Below, in pieces: positions 17-48,899 of a stretch of 64,000 bases of DNA; positions within the stretch are counted from its first letter, which is position 1; the number at the start of each line of letters is the position of its first letter. The stretch is from the NCBI RefSeq assembly GCF_000417875.1, contig NW_006920886.1:131364-195363 (forward strand), given 5' to 3'. The notes under the pieces were generated by a model, which was given only the letters and a program-made list of their open reading frames with translations, made no database searches and had not been told where the DNA came from. The stretch is from Pseudozyma flocculosa PF-1 (taxonomy: Eukaryota > Basidiomycota > Ustilaginomycetes > Ustilaginales > Ustilaginaceae). The translations under genes and the position numbers were made by a program.

Positions 17-69
17 AAACCCTTGCACCCCGGCCGCGGCGGTCCCAACCCCCCGCTGCCGCTGCCACC

Positions 70-2255
70 ATGACAAACGGTGCGGCGTACGTCGATGCTC
101 AGCCCAGCCTCATCCCTGCGCGCATCAGCATCCATCACCTCCAGCTGCGCGACCTGCTCCAGCCCGCAGCGCAGCCCGACCGCGTCCTCTTTGTCAACCG
201 CCTCAAGATCGAACAGGCCGACTTCAACAGCCTCAAACCCCCCACCACCTACTGCACCCTCGACTTTCTCCCAAACTGCCTCACCACCTCGTGCGGACTC
301 CTCGCCGCCGGCGGACAGCACAGCGAGCTAGCACTCCGCCCCCTTCACTCGCCCAGCTACACGCCTCATCACCAGGTCGATCCGGACGCCGACCGTTACC
401 CGGCACCCTGGCTGCTCAGGACCCCCACCGGCGGATCCATCAACAACGCCATCAGCATCCAGCCCGACTCGTACGGACAGCCCTCGTCGTCTGCATATTC
501 GGCTCCGCACTCGTCTTCCCGGCGGAGGAGGGAAAGGATCCGCGTCACCCCGCATGATCCGTCTACCTCGTCGTCGTCCTCAAGCGCCACTATCTGGGCG
601 CGCGACGAACCGCGCTCCTCATCGTCTTCCTACCCGTCCCCCTCGTCGTCCTCCCTCTCCCAGCGATATCCCTTGACCCACTCGGCAGGCCCTCCATCCT
701 GGCAGATTCCCGAATGCAGCGACCACGACGACGACACCGCCGCCGCCTACGGCTTCGACCCGTCGACGACCGCTTCCTACTCGTCCGGCGCGTTATCGTC
801 GTCGCCGTGGCGCAGCAGCACCTGGCGTCGTCCACACAACTCGACCCTGCGCGCCAACCTCGAGGCCGAGCGTCGACATGCGGCGTCCGAGGTGGCAGCG
901 CACGCCGGGCCCGTGAGGATCATGGTAAGCAACAATGACCAAAGCATCAAGTCGTACAAGCTGCGCCCGCCCTCGGGCTCGCCCGGGGCGGGAGGGCGCA
1001 TCGAGTCGGGCCTGCCGGGGCTGTCCAAGACCAGCACGCTCCACTTCCCCACGGCCATCAACCACTCGTCGCTCTCTCCGGACCGTCGCACGCTGGTGGC
1101 CGTCGGCGACACGCCCGAGGTCTTTATCTACCACGTGCGGCCCAACGGAGAGTACGACAAGGTGGCGACCTACAGCGCCTCGACGGATGCGTCGTTTTCG
1201 ACGACGTGGTCCCCCGACGGGTCCAAGTTCGCCGTGGCCAGCCAGGACGGCATCGTGAGCGTATGGGACGTGCGCAGCTCCTATCCGCTCGCCTCGCTCA
1301 CGACGTCGCAGGCGGGCATGCCCGGCGGCAACGGCGCGGCGCGCGTCGTCAAGTTTTCGCCCGGCGGCGACCTGCTGGCGTTTACCGAGCACCGCAACTA
1401 CTTCCACATCGCCGACACCGTCACGTTTGCCAACGTGCAGCGCCTGCCTGCGCCCCACGCGACGCCCGGGGCCGCATCCCTATCGCCGCTGGTGCCGACG
1501 TCGATATCGGCGCTGGATTCGGCCCACCACGATGACGGGGGATACTCGGATATGCCCTCTCCGCCGCGGAGGGGAGCGATGGCAGCGCCCAACATGGGTC
1601 TGCTGACGAACCCGATGAGCGTCTCGGCGTCGGGGTCGTCGTCGTCGTCGTCGGCCTCGCCCTCGACGTCCGGTCCGAATCGGATGCAGATCCTGCTCAA
1701 TGCCGCACAGGCGCACCGCGAGGCGACGACGGTGCTGGACCGCTTCCGGATCACATCTTCGATCCGACCGGGTGCGTCCCTGTCGTCGTCGGCGGGGGCG
1801 GGGACGGGGGCGTACGAGTCGTTGCTGCACCAACGCATCGGTCCGGACGCCGACGAGGTGGCGGGCTCGTCGCTGTCGTCGTCGTCGTCTTCTTCTTCGC
1901 CCATCATCGAGGGGTATCCGAACGAGGCCATCATCAGGAACCGAGGTGTGAGGAATCACGAGGGGGCAGGATCGGGGGCATTCGGAATGACGAACATCAG
2001 CGGTCTCTGTTGGGATCCTACCGGTACGTACCTCGACTTGTCTTTTTTTCTTTTCTTTCTTCTTTTCCCTCTCCCTGTCGCGATCTGACGCCCTCCTCCT
2101 TCTCCCTTCTTTCCCCTTCTTGCCGACGACGACGATGATGACGACGACGATGCGGGGGGACAGGTGAACAAATCTATGTATCCACTGAAAGACTCGTGGC
2201 GAGGTATACCGTCCTCGATGCGCGACAACCTTCGTTTGGGCCACAACTCCTCTGA
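70..2255 (+). CDS. WD40-repeat protein (DUF2415-like type)
   Basis: Two exons, 70-2023 and 2164-2255 (681 aa). The intron starts GTACGT, is pyrimidine-rich and ends CAG; splicing turns WDPTG into WDPTGEQIYVSTE, the expected end of a WD repeat. The ATG lies in a good GCCACC context. Residues 1-95 hold a conserved-looking start that includes an AAGG motif. Residues 120-260 are Ser-rich and disordered. WD/YVTN-like blades follow at about 280-475 (for example SFSTTWSPDGSKFAVASQDG and VSVWD), then a Ser/Gly-rich loop, then the last blade. Fungal proteins of this shape, such as an uncharacterised S. pombe WD protein with a C-terminal DUF2415 motif, have no settled function. The WD fold is a firm call; the subfamily is a recollection, not a search result. 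A further exon left of the window cannot be excluded. Confidence 0.8.
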
Positions 2256-20666: not shown

Positions 20667-21462
20667 ATGAGGTCCACTTTCAAGAACGAGCACACGTTTG
20701 GTGAGCACGAGCACGAATCGCATCAGCGCTCTCACAGGCTGGCTGGACGGCATCTGATTCCCTCTGCATCCTCCCTCTGGCCCTCCTTTGCCCGTCCGCG
20801 ACCCATAGAGAAACGCAAGGCCGAGGCCGAGCGCATCCGCCAGAAGTACCCCGACAGGATCCCTGTGAGTGGGACCTCGCCTCTCGATCTGCCTAGGCGA
20901 ATGCAGGCGACATGGCGGACTCACACCCGCCGCATCCTGCTCCACCGATCTGCCCGTCTCTGCCAGGTCATCTGCGAAAAGGCCGACCGAACCGACATCC
21001 CTACAATTGACAAGAAGAAGTACCTCGTGCCATCAGTGAGTCTTGGCCGCCCGGCCGGCCCGGGACAGATCGACAGCTGGCCGCACGATGAGAGGCCAGG
21101 GCGCTCATCGCACCGTCCGGCCTATCTGCTCTTGCACCTCTTGCCCGTCCGCCCGTACACCGCCGCAGGATCTCACAGTGGGCCAGTTTGTCTATGTCAT
21201 CCGCAAGAGGATCAAGCTGGCGCCCGAGAAGGCCATCTTCATCTTTGTCGACGAGGTACTGCCCGCCACCGCCGCGCTGATGAGCGCAATCTACGAGGAG
21301 CACAAGGACGAGGACGGTTTCCTCTACGTCAGCTACTCGGGAGAGAACACCTTGTGAGTCTTTGACCGCCACAGCAGCATGGATGCCCCTCGACTCGACT
21401 GACCGCCAGCCCTTCATGTGTTTCCCTGAACGTCGTCTCGTCCAACCAGTGGCCACCAATGA
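20667..21462 (+). CDS. ATG8: Autophagy ubiquitin-like protein Atg8
   Basis: Five exons: 20667-20700, 20809-20864, 20967-21035, 21169-21353 and 21450-21462 (118 aa). The product is conjugated to phosphatidylethanolamine on autophagic membranes. It starts [20 protein letters not shown], the N-terminal helices. It continues through [18 protein letters not shown] and [15 protein letters not shown] to [14 protein letters not shown]. The final 13-nt exon supplies the last Phe codon base, Gly116, His, Gln and stop. Gly116 is the residue exposed when Atg4 trims the tail. That exon was chosen because CAACCAG is followed by the only sequence giving F-G and a stop. The length fits the family (116-118 aa). 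Confidence 0.96.
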
Positions 21463-22605: not shown

Positions 22606-25600
22606 TTACCCGTCTCGAGTTTTGAGACGTCGTGTAAAGAAAAACCCGGGAGCTGCCAGGTAGGATCCGTATCGCGCCTCGCTCTTGCCCTCCTCTTTGA
22701 CCGGGTCGGACTCAAGGAGGATGAGAATGCGGAGCAGATCGAGCAAGCCCTTGCCCAACGGCTCCAGCAACGTGCCGAACGCATTCTTCAGCCCCACGGC
22801 GTCGAGGTGGTGGGCCAGCGCCCCTCGAGCCTCGCCGTCGTCGTCGCACCTGTAGCGCAGCGCCGGCGCTTCGTCGCCGACTTCTGGATGCAGGTCGATG
22901 CTCAACGCAAGATACTCGAAGCGAGCCGACGACGCTGCAGCCTCATCTGTCACCGGAGCGGCTTCGGCGGCCATCGCCGAGGACGGCACCGACTCGGATG
23001 ACGGGGTCCCGGTGCTGCTCTCCTGAGCTTCGGGGCGGGAAATCGGTCCTCGTGCCTTGCCAGAGATGGCCGGCGGTGCGATACCGATCTTGCCTCGAGG
23101 TAGCGCGCTGCGTCGAACCTTGGCCTGAACGACGACGTGCGAGAACCTGTTGACGTCGATCTGCGTCTGCTCACCGTTCCAGTCCGGGTCGACGTAGACC
23201 GGGATGAGCATGTCCCATCCCTCCTGCGACGGGTCTGCGCACAGCGCAACGTGGCAGGTGAACCACAGCGCCAGCATGTCCTTGGTGACGCTGTCGAGTC
23301 TTTCCGGCAGCAACGCAAAATGAGTGAAGTTGAGTCGCGCCGACCGCGCAAACTGCTCGAGAGGTCCAAGCGCTCGTTGTCCCTCGACGGCCGAGGCGTC
23401 GTCTGGCTGCCGATCGATTCGGGTCTCGACGTTGATCGCAGCCTCCAAGTTGGCGTCGCCGAAGAGTTGCATCAGCCATTCCCACAGATTTACGGGGTCG
23501 AGCGATAGGCCTTGTTGCCACATTTCCTGTCGCTTCTTGATGATGTCGCATTCGCTGTCGGCCACATTGAGCCGCTGAGCCGCGGCCGTGTCTGTCGCGA
23601 TCGTCAAGAGGAACCGCACGGCCGACCCCCAGTCGTCGCCGAGCGTCATGTAGTAGGCGCGGCTCGCGTACATGAGCGCCGATGCCACCTCTCTCCAGCG
23701 CCTATGGACGACTGCCGCAGCGTCATCGTCCGGCTCGCTCCGTGGGCTGCTGCTTTGCGGCTGCCGAAAGAGGTCAGCCGCGGCGATGCTGACGAGGGGC
23801 TCCGACGGCGTGCACATCGTCAACAACGACGTGCGCGGGCCGTGGTCGGCGGTGGTGCGCATGTGATCGCGCATCTGTTTGTCCACGAAGCGGTCGAGGC
23901 CCGCTCCAATGAATTTGAGCGGCAGTCGCTGGTACACAGCTGCCAGGTAGCGGTGCACGTCGTCGAAGAGTTGCGAGCCTTGGCACATTCGGCTGGAACG
24001 GTAACCGTCGTCCTTGCACGCGCTGGCCCAGGGAGGGAGCCCGAGCATCGGCTCCCTTGTCATGAGCATCTTGCCTTGCACCTTCCATAGCGAAACGTCG
24101 CCGACGAAGGGCCGCAGCGACGAGTAGGTAGAATAGAGTCCGAATTGGTGGTATCCGAGGTGGCTATCGCCCAGCAGAGGCCGACCCATCAGGGCCAGTT
24201 GCCGCAGGAGGGCGCGCCACAACTTTCCGTGCGGGTCCTGCTCTTTGGCGCTGAGGGCGTTGTAGGCGACATCGTGCGGCAGCTGTGTAAATGTTGGAGG
24301 AGGGAACACCGCTCGACGCCCAGGCTGCAGAAACGCGGCGAACATGTTGGGTACAGCGATTGTCCGTTCCGTGCTGAGCAGGACGAGGACCAGCCGGTCG
24401 GCGTTGGCCTTGGATCTTTGGCCGATCCCGTACCATACTTTCCACACCTCGTCCAGCAGACATCCGAGCTGGGCTGCCGAGTCGAGGGCCAGGATAAAGA
24501 CGCCGTCGTCGTGCATCTGCCCTTTCCGGACCGCGGCCTCGACGGCGCCCTGCAGGGACTTGAAAGCAAGTGCGCACGTCGTGCTCTCGAAACGATCGAG
24601 GCCGTCATCGGTGCTTTGGGCGAGACGGTCGCAGTTCTGCTGGCATCGCACGGCGATGGCCTCGAGCAAATCTTCACGACGGCTGGTCTCGAATGGCCTG
24701 TCGTGTCTAGGATCCCAGATCGCATCGCCGTGCAAGTGTTCGTAGAAGTGCCCCGCGAGCGAAATTGCCGAGGTCGTTGGCTCGTAGCTCTCCGTCACGA
24801 GGGCGACTTCGGTGGCAAGGCAGTAGGCAACGGCCTCGAGCCAAGCCACGACGCGGAGCCGATTGCCCAGCTCGCCGTCTTTGTGGTCGGTGCGATGGGG
24901 GACTGCAGGACGGAAGAGTGCATCGGCCACCGCGCTGTCTCGCGGTGGGAAGGAATTACCAGACTCTTTCGAGCGCAAGCAAATTTGGAGGCCGAGGTGA
25001 GTCTTCTTGAGCGTCTGGTCAACGAGACGAGACTTGCCCGAACCCGAGGACTGGACTATCGGAACGACGCGACCGTAACAGAAATCTTCATCGTACGTCT
25101 CCAACAAGAGTTTGATGTGGTGGCAGAGCAGGGCGTTGCCTTCGCCGAGGAATTCGACAGAGTAGTCGCGCTCGAGGATGCCCTTCCACGGCGTGGTACG
25201 CTGCGGACGCGGAGTGGCTGACGAGACGGAGCCGCGTGTGGACAACAGGGGATCAGCGGTTGGTCGACCCAGAGGCGAGACGGAGTAGGCGGACCGACAC
25301 TCACCGAGCATGCCCTCGGTCAGCATGCGATGCAGGAGTCGAACCACGACGGGAGGGGACTCGTCGAAGCCGCCTCGCAGCTCCGGCGCCACTATCTCGA
25401 AGAGGGCATCGGCGTCTTTGAGACTGAGCTGCACGCCTTCGGGCTGGAGTCGAATGGCCAGCCACGCGGGTCGCTCGTCAGACGACCTCGTGTGTAGAGA
25501 GTCGCGGAGCCAGTCGCCGAAGGCATCGCGGAGGTTGGCTTTGCTGCTTAGGAAGCCAGGGCTTGCGCCGATGCGACCGTGACGCAGATGCTTGGCGCAC

Positions 25601-25791
25601 GTCGCCAATACGCTGACCAGCACGTCGACGGTGGCCGAGGTGTGGGTGTAGGCAAAGTGCTCGAGATCTTCGAGCTCAGTTTGCTGGCCTCTACTCGTGC
25701 GGACTGCGGCAGAAGCGTCTTCGGATGACGAAGTCTTGGTGGCGTTGCGATCGGCGGCCGAGACGACCTCATCGGACGCTGAGCCGGGCAT
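22606..25791 (-). CDS. P-loop NTPase with C-terminal nuclease-like domain, copy 1
   Basis: Two exons, 25791-25305 and 25217-22606 (1032 aa). The 87-nt intron (GTGAGT...CAG) is in phase and stop-free; I call it an intron because copy 2 has one at the same place and phase. Residues 45-160 form an N-terminal domain shared with copy 2. A P-loop NTPase follows: QSSGSGKSR at about 218-226 (Walker A) and FILALDSA (Walker B-like). A conserved middle contains LPHDVAYNALS and LRPFVGDVSLWKVQ. At about 830-865, WDMLIPVYVDPDWNG then VVVQAKVR matches the D...QxK pattern of restriction-endonuclease-fold nucleases. NTPase plus such a nuclease is the layout of Crinkler/RHS-type eukaryotic proteins, many of them effectors or transposon-linked. 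Role here unknown; no signal peptide or transposon end is seen. The fold assignments are by eye. Confidence 0.75.
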   Translation of the reverse strand: MPGSASDEVVSAADRNATKTSSSEDASAAVRTSRGQQTELEDLEHFAYTHTSATVDVLVSVLATCAKHLRHGRIGASPGFLSSKANLRDAFGDWLRDSLHTRSSDERPAWLAIRLQPEGVQLSLKDADALFEIVAPELRGGFDESPPVVVRLLHRMLTEGMLGECRSAYSVSPLGRPTADPLLSTRGSVSSATPRPQRTTPWKGILERDYSVEFLGEGNALLCHHIKLLLETYDEDFCYGRVVPIVQSSGSGKSRLVDQTLKKTHLGLQICLRSKESGNSFPPRDSAVADALFRPAVPHRTDHKDGELGNRLRVVAWLEAVAYCLATEVALVTESYEPTTSAISLAGHFYEHLHGDAIWDPRHDRPFETSRREDLLEAIAVRCQQNCDRLAQSTDDGLDRFESTTCALAFKSLQGAVEAAVRKGQMHDDGVFILALDSAAQLGCLLDEVWKVWYGIGQRSKANADRLVLVLLSTERTIAVPNMFAAFLQPGRRAVFPPPTFTQLPHDVAYNALSAKEQDPHGKLWRALLRQLALMGRPLLGDSHLGYHQFGLYSTYSSLRPFVGDVSLWKVQGKMLMTREPMLGLPPWASACKDDGYRSSRMCQGSQLFDDVHRYLAAVYQRLPLKFIGAGLDRFVDKQMRDHMRTTADHGPRTSLLTMCTPSEPLVSIAAADLFRQPQSSSPRSEPDDDAAAVVHRRWREVASALMYASRAYYMTLGDDWGSAVRFLLTIATDTAAAQRLNVADSECDIIKKRQEMWQQGLSLDPVNLWEWLMQLFGDANLEAAINVETRIDRQPDDASAVEGQRALGPLEQFARSARLNFTHFALLPERLDSVTKDMLALWFTCHVALCADPSQEGWDMLIPVYVDPDWNGEQTQIDVNRFSHVVVQAKVRRSALPRGKIGIAPPAISGKARGPISRPEAQESSTGTPSSESVPSSAMAAEAAPVTDEAAASSARFEYLALSIDLHPEVGDEAPALRYRCDDDGEARGALAHHLDAVGLKNAFGTLLEPLGKGLLDLLRILILLESDPVKEEGKSEARYGSYLAAPGFFFTRRLKTRDG

Positions 25792-27120
25792 GTCTTCGTG
25801 ATCCTGAACAGGCTGGAATTGGGCGGCGATCCGGAGGTTGGAGGAAGCGATGATTGTCTGGTTAAGGAAGGCTTCGATCGTATCAGAGCTGCTAGCGGGT
25901 GGGTGATTGCATCAAGGAGAGAGAATGAGGGCTGGCGAGACAGCACGATAAGTCTGGTTGTCAGTGTGGTCTGGGCGGCCCCAGACCGGACTTATATGAA
26001 AAGGGCTGGAAGCCAGACGATAAGCGATGAGGTGAGGAGGGACGGATGAGTGCTCAGGGGGCCACTGCATCACCATGCACGCTGCCGTCGAGATCTGGGG
26101 AAGAGTGCCGGGGCGGTGGTCTGCCAAACACGATGTGGTCAACGAAAGGGGCAGCATTCACTGCATGTCTGTGCGCCAAGGGCACACAGGCTGGCGAGTC
26201 CATTCGAGGCCAATCGAGAGGCCCGTGATATGGCGGTGAGCGCGGTGATGGATTGATATGAACTGCGCGAGCAGGCGATGGAGGGGGATGAGCGAGCCTG
26301 GAAGAAGAGGGCAAGGAGCGAGCCAGCAAGCAAGGTGCCTCTGCATTCGCCGGCCGTGCGCGCTGTCCATCGGGGGTCGAGCGGCGGGGATGCGGATGGC
26401 CAACGAGCAGTCTGGATTTCTCGATCGGATCGGGGCTGCCGACCTGGCCTGGCTGCGCAGATGAGACAACGGAAGGTTGTCGCAGGCAGGCCCAGGGGCA
26501 GGCACGGGGAGGAAAAAAAAGTTGTGCTCGCTTGGCGACCAACCGACTGACGGACCCCATGAGATCACACCCCCCTGCACCACCACCACCATCACCACCA
26601 CCGGCACCCGCACCATCAACACCGCCTCTACCACCATCGCCGCCACCGCCGCCGCCGCCAACATCGCCGCCAATACCCGCCACCAACAAATCATCCCACC
26701 GACGAAGCCGACATCGGCTTCGACATATATTCAGAAGAAAGAAGAGGCGGAGGACTACCACTGACCGGACAAGCAGCGCCCCCACCGACACCGCCCGCGC
26801 CTTCTTCCTCGGTACACCACCCGCTCGCAGCCTCTTTCGTAGATTCTGGAAGAGGAAGTGTCGTCTGTCCATTTCCCTTTCACCACTCGCCCGTCCGACC
26901 TTTGGCCGTGCGTTGCCGACCCGCATTCAGCTCGCCCGCCCCTTTCACCACCGCCGTCGCTGCCTCCGGCTCCACTTGTATGCGCGGCCTCGCTGCACTC
27001 TAGCTGCTGATTTGATCGCGGAAAGCTCCACTGTCGATCCTTGAACGCCTCTCGCCTCTCGCCTCTCGCTCCGCGGTTCAGCATCATTGACCGGCCGGGC
27101 TCCCTCATCTCGACATCAGG
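25792..27120. other. Divergent intergenic region NTPase-nuclease copy 1 / nucleoporin
   Basis: This 1.33-kb stretch holds both promoters. Near the left gene there is a TATA-like box with an adjacent palindrome. CAC/CCACCAT triplet-rich DNA lies at 26570-26680 and CT-rich leader DNA before the nucleoporin ATG. I see no coding sequence. Confidence 0.55.
25969..26000 (-). promoter_or_regulatory. TATA-like box and palindrome upstream of NTPase-nuclease copy 1
   Basis: On the minus strand TTCATATAAG (26000-25991) lies about 200 bases before the ATG. It is followed at once by a perfect inverted repeat GTCTGGG-4 nt-CCCAGAC (25969-25986). This is a plausible core promoter with a hairpin near the cap site. 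Function is inferred from position. Confidence 0.35.
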
Positions 27121-30100
27121 ATGGACTTCCCTGCCCAGTACCCCGACTCGCCCGCCAAGCCGCTGTCGGGACCGGCCCGCGCCCGACTCGCGGCTCGGCA
27201 GAACCGCACCTCGTCGCTGAAACCCTACTCGAGGCGCACTTCCGCCGCTGCTCCAACGCAGAATGGCCTCGCACCCTCGTCGTCGGCTTCGGATCTGGCC
27301 GTAGTCCAGCCCCAGACTCCCGGCCGCGCATTGGCAGTCCCGGCTGCGCACGAGGCCAAGTCGCCCTTCTCGTCGCTGCGAGCCGCCTCGCCGCTCGCTC
27401 TGCTCGGAAGCGTCGGCAAGGGCATCCTCTCGCGACCCCTCAGCTGGCTAGCCAGCTCGTCCACTGCTGCAAAGTCGGACACCGAAGGCACCCCACTGCC
27501 CAAGTCTGCGTCGTCCCACAGCCTCGGCGCAGCGGCCCGGACGCGTGCCGCCCTTGATGCCGGCGCCCGAACGCAGAGGGATGACCCGGAGCGTGAGGCG
27601 CCGTCGCTCGCTGCCCGCGCCATCGGTGCACGCCTGGCCGCAGGTGTCTTGGGATCGCCGCAGCAGCACGCGCAGCCGCACGACGACGACCTCGAGAGCC
27701 AGAGCGTCGCTCGGTACGCTCCGACGCAGCCCGAGCAGCCTGCCCTGAGGCGCAGCACCAGGACTGCGGCCAGGTCCGCCGCCCTATCCCCACCTCCGCA
27801 GGCGGCATCATCCCAATCGTCCCGGATCGGCCACAGCGAAGGACGCGATGCGGTGGCATCTCCTATGACCAGGTCTCGCACTTCAAAGAGGGTGCTCGAC
27901 CTCGGCCGCACCGACGGCGACGACGGTCGGATGGAGCTGCTCAAGAGCCGATCGCCCTCCCCGGCAGCTTCGACGATGTCCGCCAGGGCGAAGCAGAGGT
28001 TGTCGGCCGGGCCCAGCCCGCTGGTCGCCTCCGGCTCGCATGCCGGCCCGTATGCCACCGTGGGCTACCGACGAGGGTCGTCGCTGCGGCCCGACGATAG
28101 CCTGGATGCGCGGATGACGCCGAGCCAGAGCAGCCCTTCCTTTGCGTTCGGCTACGGCAACGAGCGGAGGCTGGCGCGCAGCAGCTTTGGCCTGCCCCCG
28201 ACGGCATCACCGTTCCAGCTGGCGACGCGCAGCCCCCTGGCACCTCGCGAGGGTCGCTCGTCCCTCGGACCTCTGCTCGGATCCGAGCTGGGCACGAGCC
28301 CGCACCACCTCCGCGGAGGCAGCATCGGCCCGGGAAGCGTCGCCACGACCGGCTATCGCGCCTCGTCGCCGGCTATGAGGGGTACTACGCCGAAGCGAAG
28401 GGACTGGGCCTCGCTCGGTCTGGCGGCGTCTCGCTCGCCTGGACCGGGAGACGACATGATGCGCGAGTACATCGCCACCCGCACGCTGCCGGGCACCGCC
28501 CCCAGGTCGCTCGGCATGAACGTGTTCAGCGACCCGCGATCTTCGAGGGCGAGCAGCGTCGCACGCGAGGATGACAGCATGTCGCTGACGCCGAGCCGCC
28601 TGGGCAAGCGCGACATCGACATGAGCGTCGATGGCGACGAGACTGGATCGACGATGGCGGTGAGTACAGCGCCGAGCACGGCGCATGCTTCGTGCTGCGC
28701 ATATGCGTATCTCGTCGGACGTTGAGCCCTGAAACCGATGCTCCCTCCTTCTCGCCTCTTCCGCCTCGCTGCAGACTGCACGGAAGCGCCAGATGGTCTG
28801 GCACCCGCAGCTCGGCTTCATCAGCCAGGAAGAGCTCCGAGCGCGGGAGCCGAAGCCGCCCTCGCCAAAGAACGAAGCCGAGAGGCTCCTCAGCGTCCTC
28901 GAGAGCATGAAGGGTGCCGCTCGCAGCGATCGTGGCGCGGGGGCCCCGACGGCGTTGTCGCGCATGCTGCAGCCGATATCCGTGCCGGCTCCCGTATCGG
29001 ACAGGTCGCTGGCGAGCACCAGCGGCAAGGCAAGCGATCGGTCCCGGCCGATTGGCGTGGCCCCCTACTCGAGGGCCCTGCGAAGGAGCAAGCTGGCACA
29101 GAGCCAGCAGACGACCGATGAACGCCTCAGCCTTCGCGCCAAGCTGCGCCGCTCTCGGCCTGCGCTAGAGGACTCCCGCGCCGACAGCGATCTCGAAGAC
29201 GATCGAGCAGAGGACCACGACATGGACGAGACCGAGACCGAGACTGAGGTCGAGACGGAAGAGGAGCCCGTCCCGCCGAAGCGGCAGGCCAAGCAGCCGG
29301 TCAGGCGCTCGCGCAGACTTCGCGCTCGGGACGTGGAGACGAGCAGCGAGGACGAGGAGATGGCGGCCGAGGAGGTCGAGGTGGTCAAGCCGAAGAGCAA
29401 GGCCAAGGTCCAGCCGAAGTCCACTCAGGCCGCTGCTGCTGCCGCCCCTGTCTCCGCCGCCCGCGCCACTAACGCTAGCAAGCAGCAGGAGGAGAACAAG
29501 GCCCGCTCCGATGTGGCTGTCTCCGCAGCGCCCGCCGCTCCGAAGCCAGCATCGCACCGAATCAGCCTCGCCGCTGCCAAGTCGTCGACATCGGCGCCGC
29601 CGCCAAAGAAGGACAACTTCACGGTGCGCAGCCAGGCCGACTCCGACGGCACCCGCGAAAAGTCGTCGCTGAGGCAGGGTGCGGCCAAGAAGTTCCGTAC
29701 GCACCAGTCGTCGGGTCGCATCTCGGCTTGGGAGGAGGATCTCGACGAGGACGACGGCCTGCCGGGCGCCGAAGATCTCTCCAAGATCAAGATGCCCACC
29801 AACCTGTTCCCTACGAACTTCTCGTTTGGCAACGGCAGCTCGACCCAGCCGCCCTCTGCCGCCGCGAGCACTGGGAAGAAGGAGGTGGATGCCGCGAAAC
29901 CCCAACCCGCGACATCGGCCGCTCCCAGCTTCTCGTTCGGGGCGCCCGCCTCGAAGGAAGCTCCGAGCGTAGTTGCGAAGCCGAAGCCGGCGGCGGCGGA
30001 GCCGTCTTTACTCGGAAGGCTCGGAAGCTTTGCAAGTCCTGGCTCGGAGGACGCCAAGCAGGCATCGACGACGCCGGCAGCCCAGCCTCCCGCCTCAAGC

Positions 30101-32188
30101 TTCTCCTTCGCTGCTTCCGCGCCCGCCCAGGAGAGACCCAAGCCTGCGTTCTCCTTCCAGCCGCCCAAGCCCGACGAGGCCAAGGCCACTGCTGCCGCAG
30201 CTGCCAGCAAGCCTGCCCCTGCCGCACCCGACTTCTTCTCGACCCCGGTCGCACCTGCCCAGCCGGCCGAAAAGACAGACGAGTCCAAAAAGTCCGGGCC
30301 CGTGCCCAACTTCTTCGGCAATGCCCTGGCAAAGGTCGAAGCCAAGCCCGCAGCGGCTGAGCCGGCAAAGAGTGCGTCGTCCGGCTTCAGCTTCGGCAAG
30401 CCAGCAAGTACGCCCACCTTTTCGGGCTTCGGTCAGCCTGCACCGGCTCCGACTGATGACGGCAAGAAGGACGCGACGGCCGACAAGCCTGCGACCACGG
30501 CCTTCTCGTTCGGAGCGGCGCCCGCGACCAAGACTGAGGAGAGCAAGCCCCCTCCCGCCGCGTCGACATTCGCATTTGGCCAGTCTCAGCCCTCGTCTTC
30601 GCCGGCTGCCGGCCCTTTCTCGTTTGGCGCACCCGCAGCCTCGGCTCCCGAAAAGCGAGCTGCCGAAGGTGAGCAGGGGGGACAAGGCGACGCCAAGCCT
30701 TCTGCAAAGACGGCGCCCACGCCCGGCTTCTCGTTCGGCGGTGCGGCTGGCTTTGGCAAGCCCGCAGCGTCTCCCGCTCCGGCTCCGGCCGAGGACAAGA
30801 AGGCCGAAGAGCCGGCCAAGAAGTCCTTCTTTTTCGGCTCCACGGACACCTCGGCGACCCCTGCGGAACCCACCAAGCCCAGCGAAGCCAAGGCAGGATC
30901 GTCCTTCTCGTTCTCGCCTGCCGCGTCGTCGCCGAGCACGCCAGCCTTCGGCTTTGGCAGCGCCGCTGCGGCGGCAAGCGATGGCAAGCCGGCTTCGTCG
31001 CCGACCACCGAGACGCCCAAGCCTGCGTTCACCTTTGGCGCGCCTGCTACGAGCACGCCCGCGGCCAGTACCGCGCCGGCCGCACCCTCAACGCCGGGCG
31101 GTTTCACCTTCGGCGCGTCGGCACCAACGTCGACCGCGGCCACCACTCCCAAGCCGTCCACGCCTGCCGCATCGACCTTTGGGGGCGGGTTCGGTACACC
31201 AGCCCAGGCGCAGTTCGGAAACAGCGAGATGATGGAGGACTCGCCCACGACTGGTGCGGCCGCCGCGACCTCTGCTGCGCCAGCCACCCAATCGAACCGG
31301 TTCACGTTTGGCGCACCAAGCCCCGCCGCGACAGGCGCAGCCAACGGGAGCGCATCCCCCTTTGGCATCTCGGCTGCTGGTGGGTCCAGCGTAACCAGCC
31401 CGAACCTGGCGACGTCGAAGCCGCCGTCATTCAGCTTCGGAGCTTCAGCTGCTGTGCCGTCGGCGCCTCTGACGACGCCTTCGACCCCTACCTTTGGTGC
31501 GGCACCACTCGCTGCCGGCACGACGGGCATGTTCGGCTCGTCGGCGCCCGCGCCCTCTGCCGTGCCCGCCTCGGCGGCTCCCTCGCCGGGATTCACCTTC
31601 ACTGCAGCCCCACCGACGAGCGCAGCCGCTCCGTCTGTTAACGTCTTTGGCAGCGCGTCTGCTGCACCGACGCCGTTTGGCTCGGCGCCCTCGTCACCAG
31701 CCCCCTTCATTTTCGGAGCCTCGCAGCCGCAGCAGCCGCAGCAGCCGCAGCAGGTGCAGCCACCGTCCACGGCGTTCACATTTGGCAGCACCAATGCCGC
31801 CTCGCCAGCTCCGAGCTTTTCGTTCGGGTCCAACATGAACACGCCATCGCAGCAGCAGCAGCCTGGCGGCGGTGGCGGCGGAGGTGGAGGCGCCTTCACC
31901 TTTGGCGGCCAGCCGGGTGGCGCCGCGACGCCCGCACCGGCCCCCTTCACGTTCGGTGCTCCGCAGTCGCAGCCGCCGACGCCCGGAGCCGGCGGTCCCT
32001 TTGCGTTTAATGCCGCACCCAGCCCTGGTCCGCCGTCGTTTGGAGCGCCGCAGCAGCAACAGCAGCAGCAGGGCGCCACGGCGACGCCGCCGGGATCCGC
32101 TGGCGGGCTGTTCAATATTGGCGCCGCTTCAGCCAGCCAGGGTCCCGGCGGAAGGCCCATCAAGCCGCGCCCGCGCAGGCGACCGTGA
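27121..32188 (+). CDS. FG-repeat nucleoporin (Nup1/Nup124/Nup153-like)
   Basis: Two exons, 27121-28659 and 28775-32188 (1650 aa). The intron is GTGAGT...GCTGCAG; it joins GDETGSTMA to TARKRQMVWHP, the conserved pre-FG segment of this nucleoporin group (about residues 514-540). The N-terminal 510 residues are Ser/Ala/Arg-rich and disordered. A charged Glu/Lys stretch occupies about 640-700. From about 860 to 1625 there are dozens of FSFG, FTFG and FGxP motifs spaced by Ser/Ala/Pro/Lys. The extreme C terminus has FNIG, then GGRPIKPRPRRRP, matching the basic end of nuclear-basket nucleoporins. It should act at the nuclear face of the pore, binding importins and exportins. Placement in the Nup1/124/153 group is family knowledge plus inference. 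Short CAG runs encode Gln stretches. Confidence 0.88.
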
Positions 32189-45015: not shown

Positions 45016-45675
45016 GCGGTTGTTGTCCGGGCTGCGACGGCCTGCAATGACAATCGGTTCTACGCCCAGCTACGCCCGCATCGTCCTGCGAAGATGGCGA
45101 GGAAGCCATGCCGTCCTGAGAGCGTCGGGACGCCAGGTGTTCGAGCGCCGACCGCGCCCGCCTAGAGCGGCGGCACGCTCATCGAAGCGGTCCAGGAGGC
45201 GCCTAAGTTAGGCTCCTTGCAGTATCTGTTCTTCTTGTTGCCCGTAGCCTGGCCAGTAGGTCAGGGTACAGTGCAACGGCGCGAGGCTACTCTGCCACGC
45301 TCTGTGGGTTCTGCAGACGTACTCCTATGTCCGCAAGTGTGCTGTTTCCCGCTCTGGAGGAGCGCTGAAACCATTCATTGCACCTACATAGTTGAAGTAA
45401 GCTTCGGAAAGAGTCTGGCGACCGAGAGCGGATCGGGCTCCTCACGTCTGCCACGAGGGGGCCGAAAAGCGCTGCCTCATCCGCTGGATCTTGCACGCCC
45501 GATAGAGTGCGCTCGCACGGCCCATGCAAGGTGCCTCTCGCTCTCCTGCCGCTGGCAACGCGAGCATGCATATGGGCTCCAATCTCAGACTCAAACCACA
45601 AATACCATCTCGGTCGAAGTTCACTCCCTCCTCCACCATCGCCCTCGTCACCTGGTCAGTGATACAGCCTGCACC
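45016..45675. other. Intergenic region before NTPase-nuclease copy 2
   Basis: This 660-bp stretch has no recognised gene. A frame in phase with the body of the downstream gene opens from an ATG at 45524, but its residues before 45780 look non-coding. No direct or inverted repeat shared with the flank of copy 1 was seen. Confidence 0.5.
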
Positions 45676-48600
45676 ATGTCTGCGCGTGGCAGCTCAGACT
45701 CGTCCTCGGAGCAGTCTGATATCACAGACGCTCTGGCCGGCCTGCCTGGGACTGGCCGCAAGCTCAGAGAGCCCGGGGGATCTCGACGATCAGCAGAAGC
45801 TCAAGGAGCTCGAGCATTTTGCGAGGGTCTCCATCAAGTCAGAAGTCGAACAGCTTCGCGTCTTTCTTGCTGGTTGCCACCAACTGCTGTCACACCACGG
45901 ATTGGACCTTACTCCATCCAAGTCAATCATCCACGATGCCTTTGCGGCGTGCGCACGAGCCTGCCTTGATCCGCAGCGGCCTGGACAGCCGCCCGCCTGG
46001 ACTAGAAGGCTGCTCGAAGCCAACGGCATGCAACGCTCCCACCGGGACGCCGAGGGGCTCTTCCAGATCGTCAAGCCCGAGCTGCAAGCAGGGTTCGCCG
46101 ACACTGTCCCCGCGACAGTCGCTCTCCTCTTTCGGCTGATGACCGACGGCATGCTCCGTGAGTCCCACACCGCGCGCCTCTCTGTCCCGAGAGCTCTAGA
46201 CTTCACCAGCGACTGATGGACTCCGTTCGCTCTCGTTGTGTGCTCACAGCCGTGCCGTTCGCTCTCGTTGTGTGCTCACAGCCGTGCCATCTCCCAGACG
46301 CTGGGTCCCGCCAAATCACCGCGTCGAGGACGACTATCGGGCAGATTTCCTCGGCCACGGAGACTTGCTCCTGTGCCATCACATCAAAACAATCCTCAGA
46401 ATCTACAATCCACAGAAGCACTACGGGCGCATCGTACCCATCGTGCAGTCTTCGGGCTCCGGGAAATCACGCACAGTCGACCAAACACTCAAAAAGACGC
46501 ATCTCGGCGTTCAGCTCTGCTTCCGAAAGGAAAGCCAGACTGCCGTTCCGCCGCGAGACGCAGTGCTAGCCGACATACTCTGTCGACCTGAACATATCCC
46601 AAACGGCCACCCCACCGACAGCAGACTGCGCGATCGCCTCTGTGTTCTTGCGTGCTTCGAGGCTCTGGCACGCTGCCTTGCCAAGGAGATCAGCTTCCTT
46701 TGTGAAAGCTTTACAGCGACGGCGGCCGGCCCCTCGCTTGCCGGGCGCTTCTATGAACACTTGCACGCAGAGCTGGTCTCGAGTCCCAGCGTCGACGCGG
46801 GGCGCACAAGGCCGGCTGGACGCTGCCGACGACAAGAGCTGCTTGAGACCATTGCCGCTCAATGCAAGGAGACCTGCGACAGCTTCGCTCGCAGCACATC
46901 GGACGAGCTCAAGCACTTCGAGAACACCGCCTGCGCCCAGGCTTTTCTATCGCTGCAGGCGTCTGTCAGCCGAGCCGTCGAGTCAGGGCAGATGCACAAA
47001 GACGGCGCCTTCGTCCTAGCTCTCGATGAGGCGACCGGCCTCGGATACCTGCTGGGGGACATTCGACGACTCTGGCAGGCAATGGGCGAAAAGATAGTCG
47101 GCGAGGCCAACAGACTGGTCATGCTCCTGCTCGACACCAACTCGAACGTCAGCCACCTCGCCGGTCAAGAGGCGCTGGTGAAGTCCGACCGCTTGGAGAA
47201 CAAGGAGTTGAAGCTGCTTCCGGTTTTCACAAAGCTCCCCTACGACGTCGCCTACAACGCACTCAGTCGCGAGGAGCAGAATCCAGACGGCAAGACATGG
47301 GGCACCCTTCTCAAGCAGCTGCCGCGGATGGGCCGGCCGCTCCTGAACAACCAGCACCTGAAGTACGTCACCGACGAAGAATCTGGCTACGAGGCTCTGC
47401 GGCCGTTCGTTGGCGAAGTCTCGCTCTTCAAGGTCCAAGCCAAGCTGCTCACCGACAAGGAGCCGGCGCTCAAGCTTCCTTCCGTCATTGCTGAGCCCGA
47501 GACATCCGCAAAGCTCCAAGATCCTGCCGAAGTCTACCAGGTTGCTCTCGACAGGTATCTGGCTGCCCTGTGCTCACGGCTTCCCCTCCGCTTCATCGGC
47601 CTTCAAGGCACAGTGGACCTCGACCAGTTCCTGCAGCGCCAGGTGAGCTCGCACTTGCGCACCATCTCCGACGTCAATACCACCACGAACTTCATCAGTA
47701 CCGGCACCCCGTCGGAGCCTCTGCTGAGCATAGCTGCGGCCGATCTTTTCCGGAAGCCCCGCAAGAATCAATCGGACACGACCTCGAAGCGGTGGGAAGA
47801 GGCCATCTTCGCAATCCGCTTCGCGAGAAAGTTCTATGGCCTCACGGCAGGCGAGGATGGCGAGGAAGTCATGCGTCTTCTGCTGATGATGGCCACCGAC
47901 CTGGCCGCCTACCAGAGCCTTGTCGATGCTGCCAGCGAAGGCCAGGGATCAACAGACAGAGAGGTGATGGACCACTGGGAGAGGGGCGCGACGCTCGAGC
48001 CCATCTCTTTGTGGGACTGGCTCGGCGAGCTGTTCGGTGCGACCAACATGGCGGCCGCTACTACCAAACCAGACGTAAAACGCCGCCGCTCCCCAGGCAC
48101 TTCTGCCGGGTCGGGTATAGAGCCCAAGGATCGCCTCGAAGCCTTTGCGAGGTCGGCGCGCATCAACTTCACGCACTTTGCGCCGCTGCCAGAGAGCATC
48201 GCGGCCGTGACCAAGGAGGAGGTGGCATCATGGTTCGTCAGCCACGTCGCTCTCTGTGGGGTTCCAATGCAGGCAAGCTGGGATATGTTGATCCCCGTCT
48301 ACGTGGATCCAGACTGGAACGGCGAACAGACACTGATCGACGTCAGCAAGTTTTCCTACGTCGTCATCCAGGTCAAGAACCGACTGGCCTCGGTGCCGCG
48401 TGGCAAGACCGAGATCGTCCCGCCAGTCATGCTCGCTCATCCTCGCGTGCCGGCGAGAGCCGGAAGCACCCGGCGAGGTGAGACCGCCGCCGCTTCTTCC
48501 TCGCGCTCAGCCGCCCGCCCATTCGCATCGGCGCCTCGAGGGAAGGCGTGTGCGCCACCGGCGCAATTCGAGTACCTCTCTCTGTTTGTGGAGCTCCAAC

Positions 48601-48899
48601 CTGCGTTCGAGACCGAAGCCCAGGGGCTGCGCTACACCTACGACGAGGGTTCGGCTCGAGGGTCCGTGGCCCACAAGCTTCACGCTATCGGGCTGGAAAA
48701 TGCGTTCGGCGCACTGCTGAAGAAGATGCAAGAAGGCCTCGTCGACCTCATCTGCACACTAATTGGCGCGGACCGCAACGAGGTAAAGGAGGAACTGAAT
48801 TGGGAGACGGAGTGCAAAACGATCTGCGACTACCAGAAGAGTCTCTACACGCGAAAGGTCAAGCCGGTCACCGCGACGACGAGCACGGCGAACCACTAG
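45676..48899 (+). CDS. P-loop NTPase with C-terminal nuclease-like domain, copy 2 (N-terminal break)
   Basis: Exon 1 runs from about 45676 to 46157, exon 2 from 46282 to 48899 (over 1000 aa). Order as in copy 1: N-terminal domain (from LEHFA, 45809), an intron after MLR, then QSSGSGKSR (Walker A), FVLALDEA (Walker B), LPYDVAYNALS, LRPFVGEVSLFKVQ, NFTHFAPLPE and the nuclease-like WDMLIPVYVDPDWNG with VVIQVKNR (D...QxK). By eye roughly four in ten residues match copy 1. The ATG at 45676 (caccATG) begins a Ser/Asp/Glu-rich start like that of copy 1. It is one base out of frame with the body; a five-G run at 45775-45779 is the likely site. Alternatives: a real N-terminal disabling mutation, an assembly error, or a start at 45524 in frame. 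Everything after 45780 is intact. The intron holds a duplicated acceptor. Confidence 0.7.
46224..46287 (+). repeat. 32-bp tandem duplication containing a 3' splice site
   Basis: Two perfect 32-bp copies (46224-46255 and 46256-46287) each carry the GTGTGCTCACAG acceptor of the copy 2 intron. Use of the second acceptor keeps frame. Use of the first adds 32 nt and shifts frame to a stop near 46569. Confidence 0.95.

Follow-up and report, generated by a model that had tools for sequence, protein, structure and literature searches.

Genes at the locus

The window analysed here, a 64,000-nucleotide stretch of contig NW_006920886.1 of the basidiomycete Pseudozyma flocculosa PF-1, carries two members (gene 1 and gene 2) of a large family of proteins in which a P-loop nucleoside triphosphatase (NTPase) is followed by a nuclease-like block. 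This family is fairly likely to be an intracellular conflict family of the Crinkler/RHS-like kind, a putative NTPase-gated nuclease that has undergone lineage expansion in smut fungi. The features on which the argument draws are as follows; models are those of AlphaFold2 (AF2).

22606..25791, minus strand: gene 1 of the family, an open reading frame (ORF) of 1061 codons from ATG to stop, 1032 amino acids (aa) when spliced, matching PSFLO_05056
25304..25218, minus strand: in-frame 87-nucleotide (nt) intron of gene 1, with a GTGAGT donor and a CAG acceptor, placed after the N-terminal helical domain and before that of the NTPase
25312..25716, minus strand: N-terminal helical domain, residues 26-160, predicted to be all-helix in the AF2 model
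23827..25191, minus strand: STAND/AAA+-class NTPase module, residues ~201-655, assigned from motifs, AF2 model and fold matches
22723..23364, minus strand: C-terminal nuclease-like block, residues ~810-1023, with H824, D860 and Q889-x-K891
45506..48896, plus strand: gene 2 of the family, with 45-47% identity to gene 1 over the shared part

The large ORF of gene 1, already recognized in a preliminary description of this DNA, is real, as it is complete from ATG to stop and has a public counterpart. The frame continues open to 25911 with no in-frame ATG upstream of the start used, and its guanine-plus-cytosine fraction at codon positions 1, 2 and 3 is 0.66, 0.48 and 0.76, respectively. PSFLO_05056 (P0002), which comes from another P. 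flocculosa record, is the gene 1 protein minus two blocks. The first of these coincides with the gene 1 intron (codons 163-191) and with the intron preferred for gene 2, and the same stretch is skipped in the annotated relatives P0004 and P0005; since these codons are an intron, the mature protein has 1032 aa. The second block (net 42 codons directly after Walker A) is probably a gene-model error, because it is conserved in the paralogs. At E up to 10, searches of Pfam, NCBIfam, PADLOC and the PDB sequences gave no match to the gene 1 ORF, and a first protein search with it (7994 candidates scored) returned two proteins, PSFLO_05056 and an unnamed 635-aa protein.

Gene 2 was missed in the single-gene picture of the preliminary description. 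It consists of a first frame (45506..46213, exon to 46157) and a second frame (46200..48896), separated by an intron with the same donor, in the same place, as that of gene 1. Intron lengths of 52 and 124 nt are both allowed; the 124-nt version (46158..46281) is preferred because the remaining sequence resembles gene 1. The preferred acceptor is spanned by a perfect 32-nt tandem duplication (46223..46286). P0003, a 635-aa public record, is a shorter model of gene 2. Gene 2 retains the Walker B D-E pair and QVKNR, and is a better representative of the family than gene 1.

The NTPase module

The middle domain belongs to the STAND/AAA+ class of P-loop NTPases. In gene 1 the Walker A motif is QSSGSGKSR (residues 247-255) and the Walker B strand is FILALD (residues 432-437), both of which are conserved in the family. 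In a 52-row alignment, from which gapped rows were dropped for each count, K253 is conserved in 49/49 rows and D437 in 52/52, and position 438 is Glu in 49/52; T474 (at the sensor 1 position, the polar residue after the next strand) is invariant. The family thus has Walker A, the Walker B Glu, sensor 1 and the fold expected of this class, but gene 1 lacks the Glu: the Walker A/B NTPase of the preliminary description is borne out by Walker A, the Walker B Asp and the fold matches, but the replacement of the Glu by Ser438 had gone unnoticed. The fold matches of the module are to Avs3, NRC resistosomes, CED-4, RdrA, BrxC and TnsC. Of 12 other members, two match the Pfam family AAA_16 weakly (E 0.029), taken as a hint of AAA, and one matches Choline_sulf_C (E 0.0012); the latter and the remaining, weaker Pfam matches are taken as chance.

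The C-terminal nuclease-like block

The sequence IPVYVDPDWNG...VVVQAKVR is present in gene 1 as previously claimed, and the proposal that its Gln-x-Lys stands in for Glu-x-Lys is upheld by the family: position 889 is E in 34 of 47 rows, Q in 10, K in 2 and D in 1, and K891 is K in 44/47. Most relatives therefore carry the canonical E-x-K. The Asp previously chosen, that of the DPDW stretch, was wrong. D868 and D870 are rejected as the catalytic Asp, as they are D in only 22/46 and 5/45 rows and lie in a loop of variable length between D860 and QxK; the conserved residue is D860 (the Asp of WDMLIPV), which is D in 43/46. The block can be summarized as D-(29..83)-[E/Q]xK, the spacing of 29-83 residues being taken from the 41 of 53 proteins caught by the pattern D to [E/Q/K/D]xK. 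A further residue, H824 of the NFTHF motif, is invariant (48/48), which puts its conservation above that of the residues presumed to be catalytic.

In the full AF2 model, D860 stands just ahead of a strand at 861-867, and Q889 and K891 close a strand at 883-890; the mean predicted local distance difference test (pLDDT) score is 93 for block 861-870 and 92 for block 881-890. This order of strands is that expected of a PD-(D/E)xK core, in which a conserved D and then D/E/Q-x-K fall on consecutive strands. If the two strands form a hairpin, D860, Q889 and K891 would meet, and D868 and D870 would lie at its opposite end. From the motif and the modelled strand order we infer a nuclease fold for the block, as yet unconfirmed, in which D860, Q889 (a Glu in the majority of relatives) and K891 would be catalytic. 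Nine of the 13 P. flocculosa rows keep the D and QxK. The altered rows are C4a (QVR), C25 (RIV), C1 (QVT, with Val in place of the Asp) and C30 (RAK). Two open copies, L031 (contig 1, 1901103-1903316; Val for Asp, QVT) and L040 (contig 25, 85892-88114; RIV for QxK), keep the P-loop.

The state of gene 1

Gene 1 is the fastest-evolving of the four intact members of its group: where the three others agree, it agrees with them at 225/324 sites (0.69), and the same measure is 0.84, 0.91 and 0.90 for the other three. In addition to the Walker B Glu (D437-S438), it is without the Asn after QxK. Across columns conserved outside P. flocculosa, gene 1 keeps 61/121 and gene 2 64/121, so that gene 1 is not unusual by this measure. 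Because the Walker B Glu is missing and evolution is fast, gene 1 is probably a slow or non-hydrolysing enzyme and may be a regulatory or decaying copy.

The N-terminal domain and secretion

The all-helix AF2 model agrees with the helical N-terminal domain previously described, and in blastp comparisons of the frames its similarity is confined to the nearest paralogs. None of 51 family proteins, a few of which are fragments, has a signal-like hydrophobic N terminus in a crude hydropathy scan of the first 70 residues (maximum 19-residue hydropathy 1.21), which is consistent with the earlier statement that gene 1 has no signal peptide.

Family size, spread and selection

With gene 1 as query there are 28 matches in its own genome, which, grouped with the matches of three further queries, amount to approximately 17 copies at 15 loci; the reading of gene 1 as a lone gene is accordingly rejected. 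Ten of the 17 copies have an open frame of at least 770 codons, one of which (at C18:24-26k) has no Walker A in that frame, and seven are split, stop-bearing or fragmentary. A profile search built from 13 members found at least 47 proteins at E<=10, the weakest at 4e-32; as each protein search scored about 8000 candidates, the family size is a lower bound. Among the 47 matches listed, 33 carry Ustilaginaceae names (14 of them Ustilago trichophora), two are from Agaricomycetes (Pleurotus eryngii and Athelia sp.), and 12 are without a name. One named relative is PFL1_01542 of P. flocculosa PF-1. In a family tree the P. flocculosa copies fall into two groups and U. trichophora has recent duplicates, some nearly identical; the tree was built by a quick method from 56 rows, with a warning of long branches, and excludes near-duplicates and short pieces (P0001-P0005, P0049, P0051-P0053). 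Public names for the family are "uncharacterized", "hypothetical" and "conserved hypothetical Ustilaginaceae-specific protein", the last being a generic label that other genes also carry, and no description of the family was found among the open-licence papers listed. A search for viral relatives gave 89 stretches that fitted a pattern, none of which was confirmed, and in a BFVD fold search the top match, an AAA-ATPase at 0.01, missed the threshold of E<=0.001.

Nine of the 15 loci lie less than 100 kilobases (kb) from a contig end, vs. 3.9 expected (simulated p 0.006); with a 50-kb cut there are 5 vs. 2.1 expected (p 0.045), and for the median distance p is 0.011, with the cut-offs picked after the positions were known and contig ends not necessarily being telomeres. 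The ratio of nonsynonymous to synonymous substitution rates (dN/dS) between intact copies is 0.27-0.46 (NG86, all aligned codons, 7 pairs), and 0.36-0.46 in the three pairs that involve gene 1, although dS is 0.74-1.71 and near saturation in several pairs, which makes these values approximate. With filtering the range was 0.22-0.32, a result with a downward bias. On these ratios purifying selection seems to act on the family, perhaps less strictly on gene 1.

Flanking DNA and neighbouring genes

DNA similarity between copies is almost confined to the coding frames (blastn, 14 regions), apart from three short matches: L030 and L032 share 90 nt of upstream DNA, L034 and L035 match over 168 nt, and a third match falls in a simple repeat. 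Long matches between P. flocculosa copies are 70-74% identical at the DNA level. In the two regions of the window, a search for terminal repeats gave inverted pairs of 70-94% over 14-28 nt, none of which was outstanding by eye; one pair flanks gene 1 (21404-21429 with 25912-25937, 73%). To the left of gene 1 lies the C-terminal part of ATG8 (21043..21357, plus strand; PF02991, E 4e-28). To its right lies a long low-complexity ORF (28793..32188, plus strand) with many FG-type repeats, which looks nucleoporin-like by eye and has no Pfam match at E<=0.01.

Proposed function and rival explanations

On the favoured reading, a variable helical N-terminal domain would be joined to a STAND/AAA+-class P-loop NTPase and then to a metal-dependent PD-(D/E)xK-type nuclease block. 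NTP binding and oligomerization of the NTPase would gate the nuclease, which would cut nucleic acid within the fungal cell, with DNA as the most likely substrate, and the family would multiply and decay in the manner of Crinkler/RHS-type conflict families, either selfish or aimed at invading DNA. The evidence does not discriminate between a selfish element, a role in genome defence and a mixed history. Several results weigh against this reading. The segment that contains K891 (block 891-900) averages a pLDDT of 51 in the full model, and the C-terminal domain modelled alone reaches 50.5, with no useful PDB match and no restriction endonuclease (REase)-like chain, though this lone model is too poor to count for or against. 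Neither the library nor the PDB sequence searches matched a nuclease, and the PDB profile searches gave one chance-like match each. The whole AF2 model has no Foldseek match at E<=0.001, and its fold list is filled by NTPase matches; the structure prediction suggested in the preliminary description recovered STAND/AAA+ folds but left the C-terminal part without a nuclease match. Furthermore, 4 of the 13 P. flocculosa rows are without intact nuclease residues, for which reason nuclease activity would appear dispensable in some copies. Mobility is not shown, given the lack of convincing terminal repeats or shared flanks. The near-saturated dS values also weigh against the favoured reading. Taken as a whole, the earlier interpretation stands for the NTPase and the Q-x-K motif, errs in its choice of Asp, and is unconfirmed as to the nuclease fold.

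The lack of any nuclease match in fold and sequence searches, along with the greater conservation of H824, would suit a C-terminal block that is no nuclease, in which the conserved D and [E/Q]xK would have a structural role or bind some other partner. This appears doubtful, as D, [E/Q] and K are conserved with an E/Q exchange in hydrophobic strands whose order is PD-(D/E)xK-like. A mobile element of which the copies would be remnants, and whose NTPase and nuclease would act like TnsC and TnsA, is likewise rather unlikely; the dispersal of the copies with decay, the presence of TnsC among the fold matches, and the 14 of 47 listed matches in U. trichophora, some nearly identical, would fit, but DNA similarity that nearly ends at the coding region, unconvincing terminal repeats and the age of the P. 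flocculosa copies, judged from their DNA-level identity, do not. An intracellular defence system similar to NLR or Avs proteins, in which nucleic acid or protein of an invader (mycovirus, plasmid or transposon) would be sensed by the STAND NTPase and the nuclease would act as effector, has a low probability of its own, to which the alignment of the NTPase module with Avs3, NRC resistosomes, CED-4, RdrA and BrxC, the multicopy and divergent state of the family with dN/dS below 1 between intact copies, and an N terminus that is not strongly hydrophobic all contribute. RNA silencing is absent from some smut fungi. That the family represents an as yet unnamed, basidiomycete-wide class of STAND-NTPase/PD-(D/E)xK proteins that act inside the cell, serving as an NLR/Avs-like genome-defence arsenal in smuts, is a slim prospect.

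A secreted or translocated effector that acts on a plant or on this biocontrol yeast's powdery mildew host, i.e., the true use of Crinklers, is very unlikely. The layout of NTPase plus REase is shared with Crinkler C-termini, according to PMC5289972; no signal-like N terminus was seen in the hydropathy scan, however, and gene 1 has no Crinkler header model. According to PMC6079639, P. flocculosa has lost key pathogenicity effectors and plant pathogenicity, yet it retains its roughly 17 copies. Because of this loss, the absence of signal-like N termini in the scan and the continued abundance of copies, an intracellular conflict role is favoured over a secreted effector with moderate confidence.

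Comparison with known systems

NTPase-nuclease families comparable to this one are known elsewhere, and the smut family itself is unnamed. STAND NTPases with nuclease effectors include Avs-type proteins and fungal NLRs; unlike these, the smut proteins have their nuclease-like block at the C-terminus, sensor repeats were not recognized, and there was no PADLOC match. In Tn7-like transposons, TnsC is paired with TnsA. The smut family, by contrast, is a single polypeptide in a fungus, and transposon ends were not found. A natural comparison is offered by the two copies in the window, which lie about 20 kb apart and differ in the Walker B Glu (kept in gene 2, absent from gene 1), and the E/Q exchange together with the corrected Asp pinpoints residues for testing.

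The closest likeness is to the Crinkler-RHS-type (CR) proteins, among which Zhang et al. in 2016 reportedly described a class with NTPase and REase domains. The smut proteins resemble CR proteins in that a diverse N-terminal header is followed by a P-loop NTPase and a restriction-endonuclease-like block, here recognized by motif, and PMC5289972 adds that the NTPase of the CR class is thought to regulate the nuclease and that helical headers other than ubiquitin-like (Ubl) ones occur. Like CR proteins, too, the smut family is multicopy and lineage-expanded, with decaying copies. It differs in having no Crinkler (Ubl) or RHSP Pfam match and no secretion signal. The Ubl-type header PF20147 was not found in gene 1 (0 Pfam families at E<=10), nor was the RHSP model PF07999 (hmmscan). 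Both models also gave 0 matches across the P. flocculosa genome, a result of no weight because the controls (all 14 in the case of PF20147) were equally silent. The Crinkler/RHS layout given in the preliminary description is thus retained for the NTPase and the nuclease motif, but not for these models or for a confirmed REase fold. A large family without a descriptive name thereby gains a testable identity, that of an NTPase-gated nuclease of the conflict type, and its many copies in a non-pathogen bear on whether Crinkler-like proteins arose first as effectors or as intracellular weapons.
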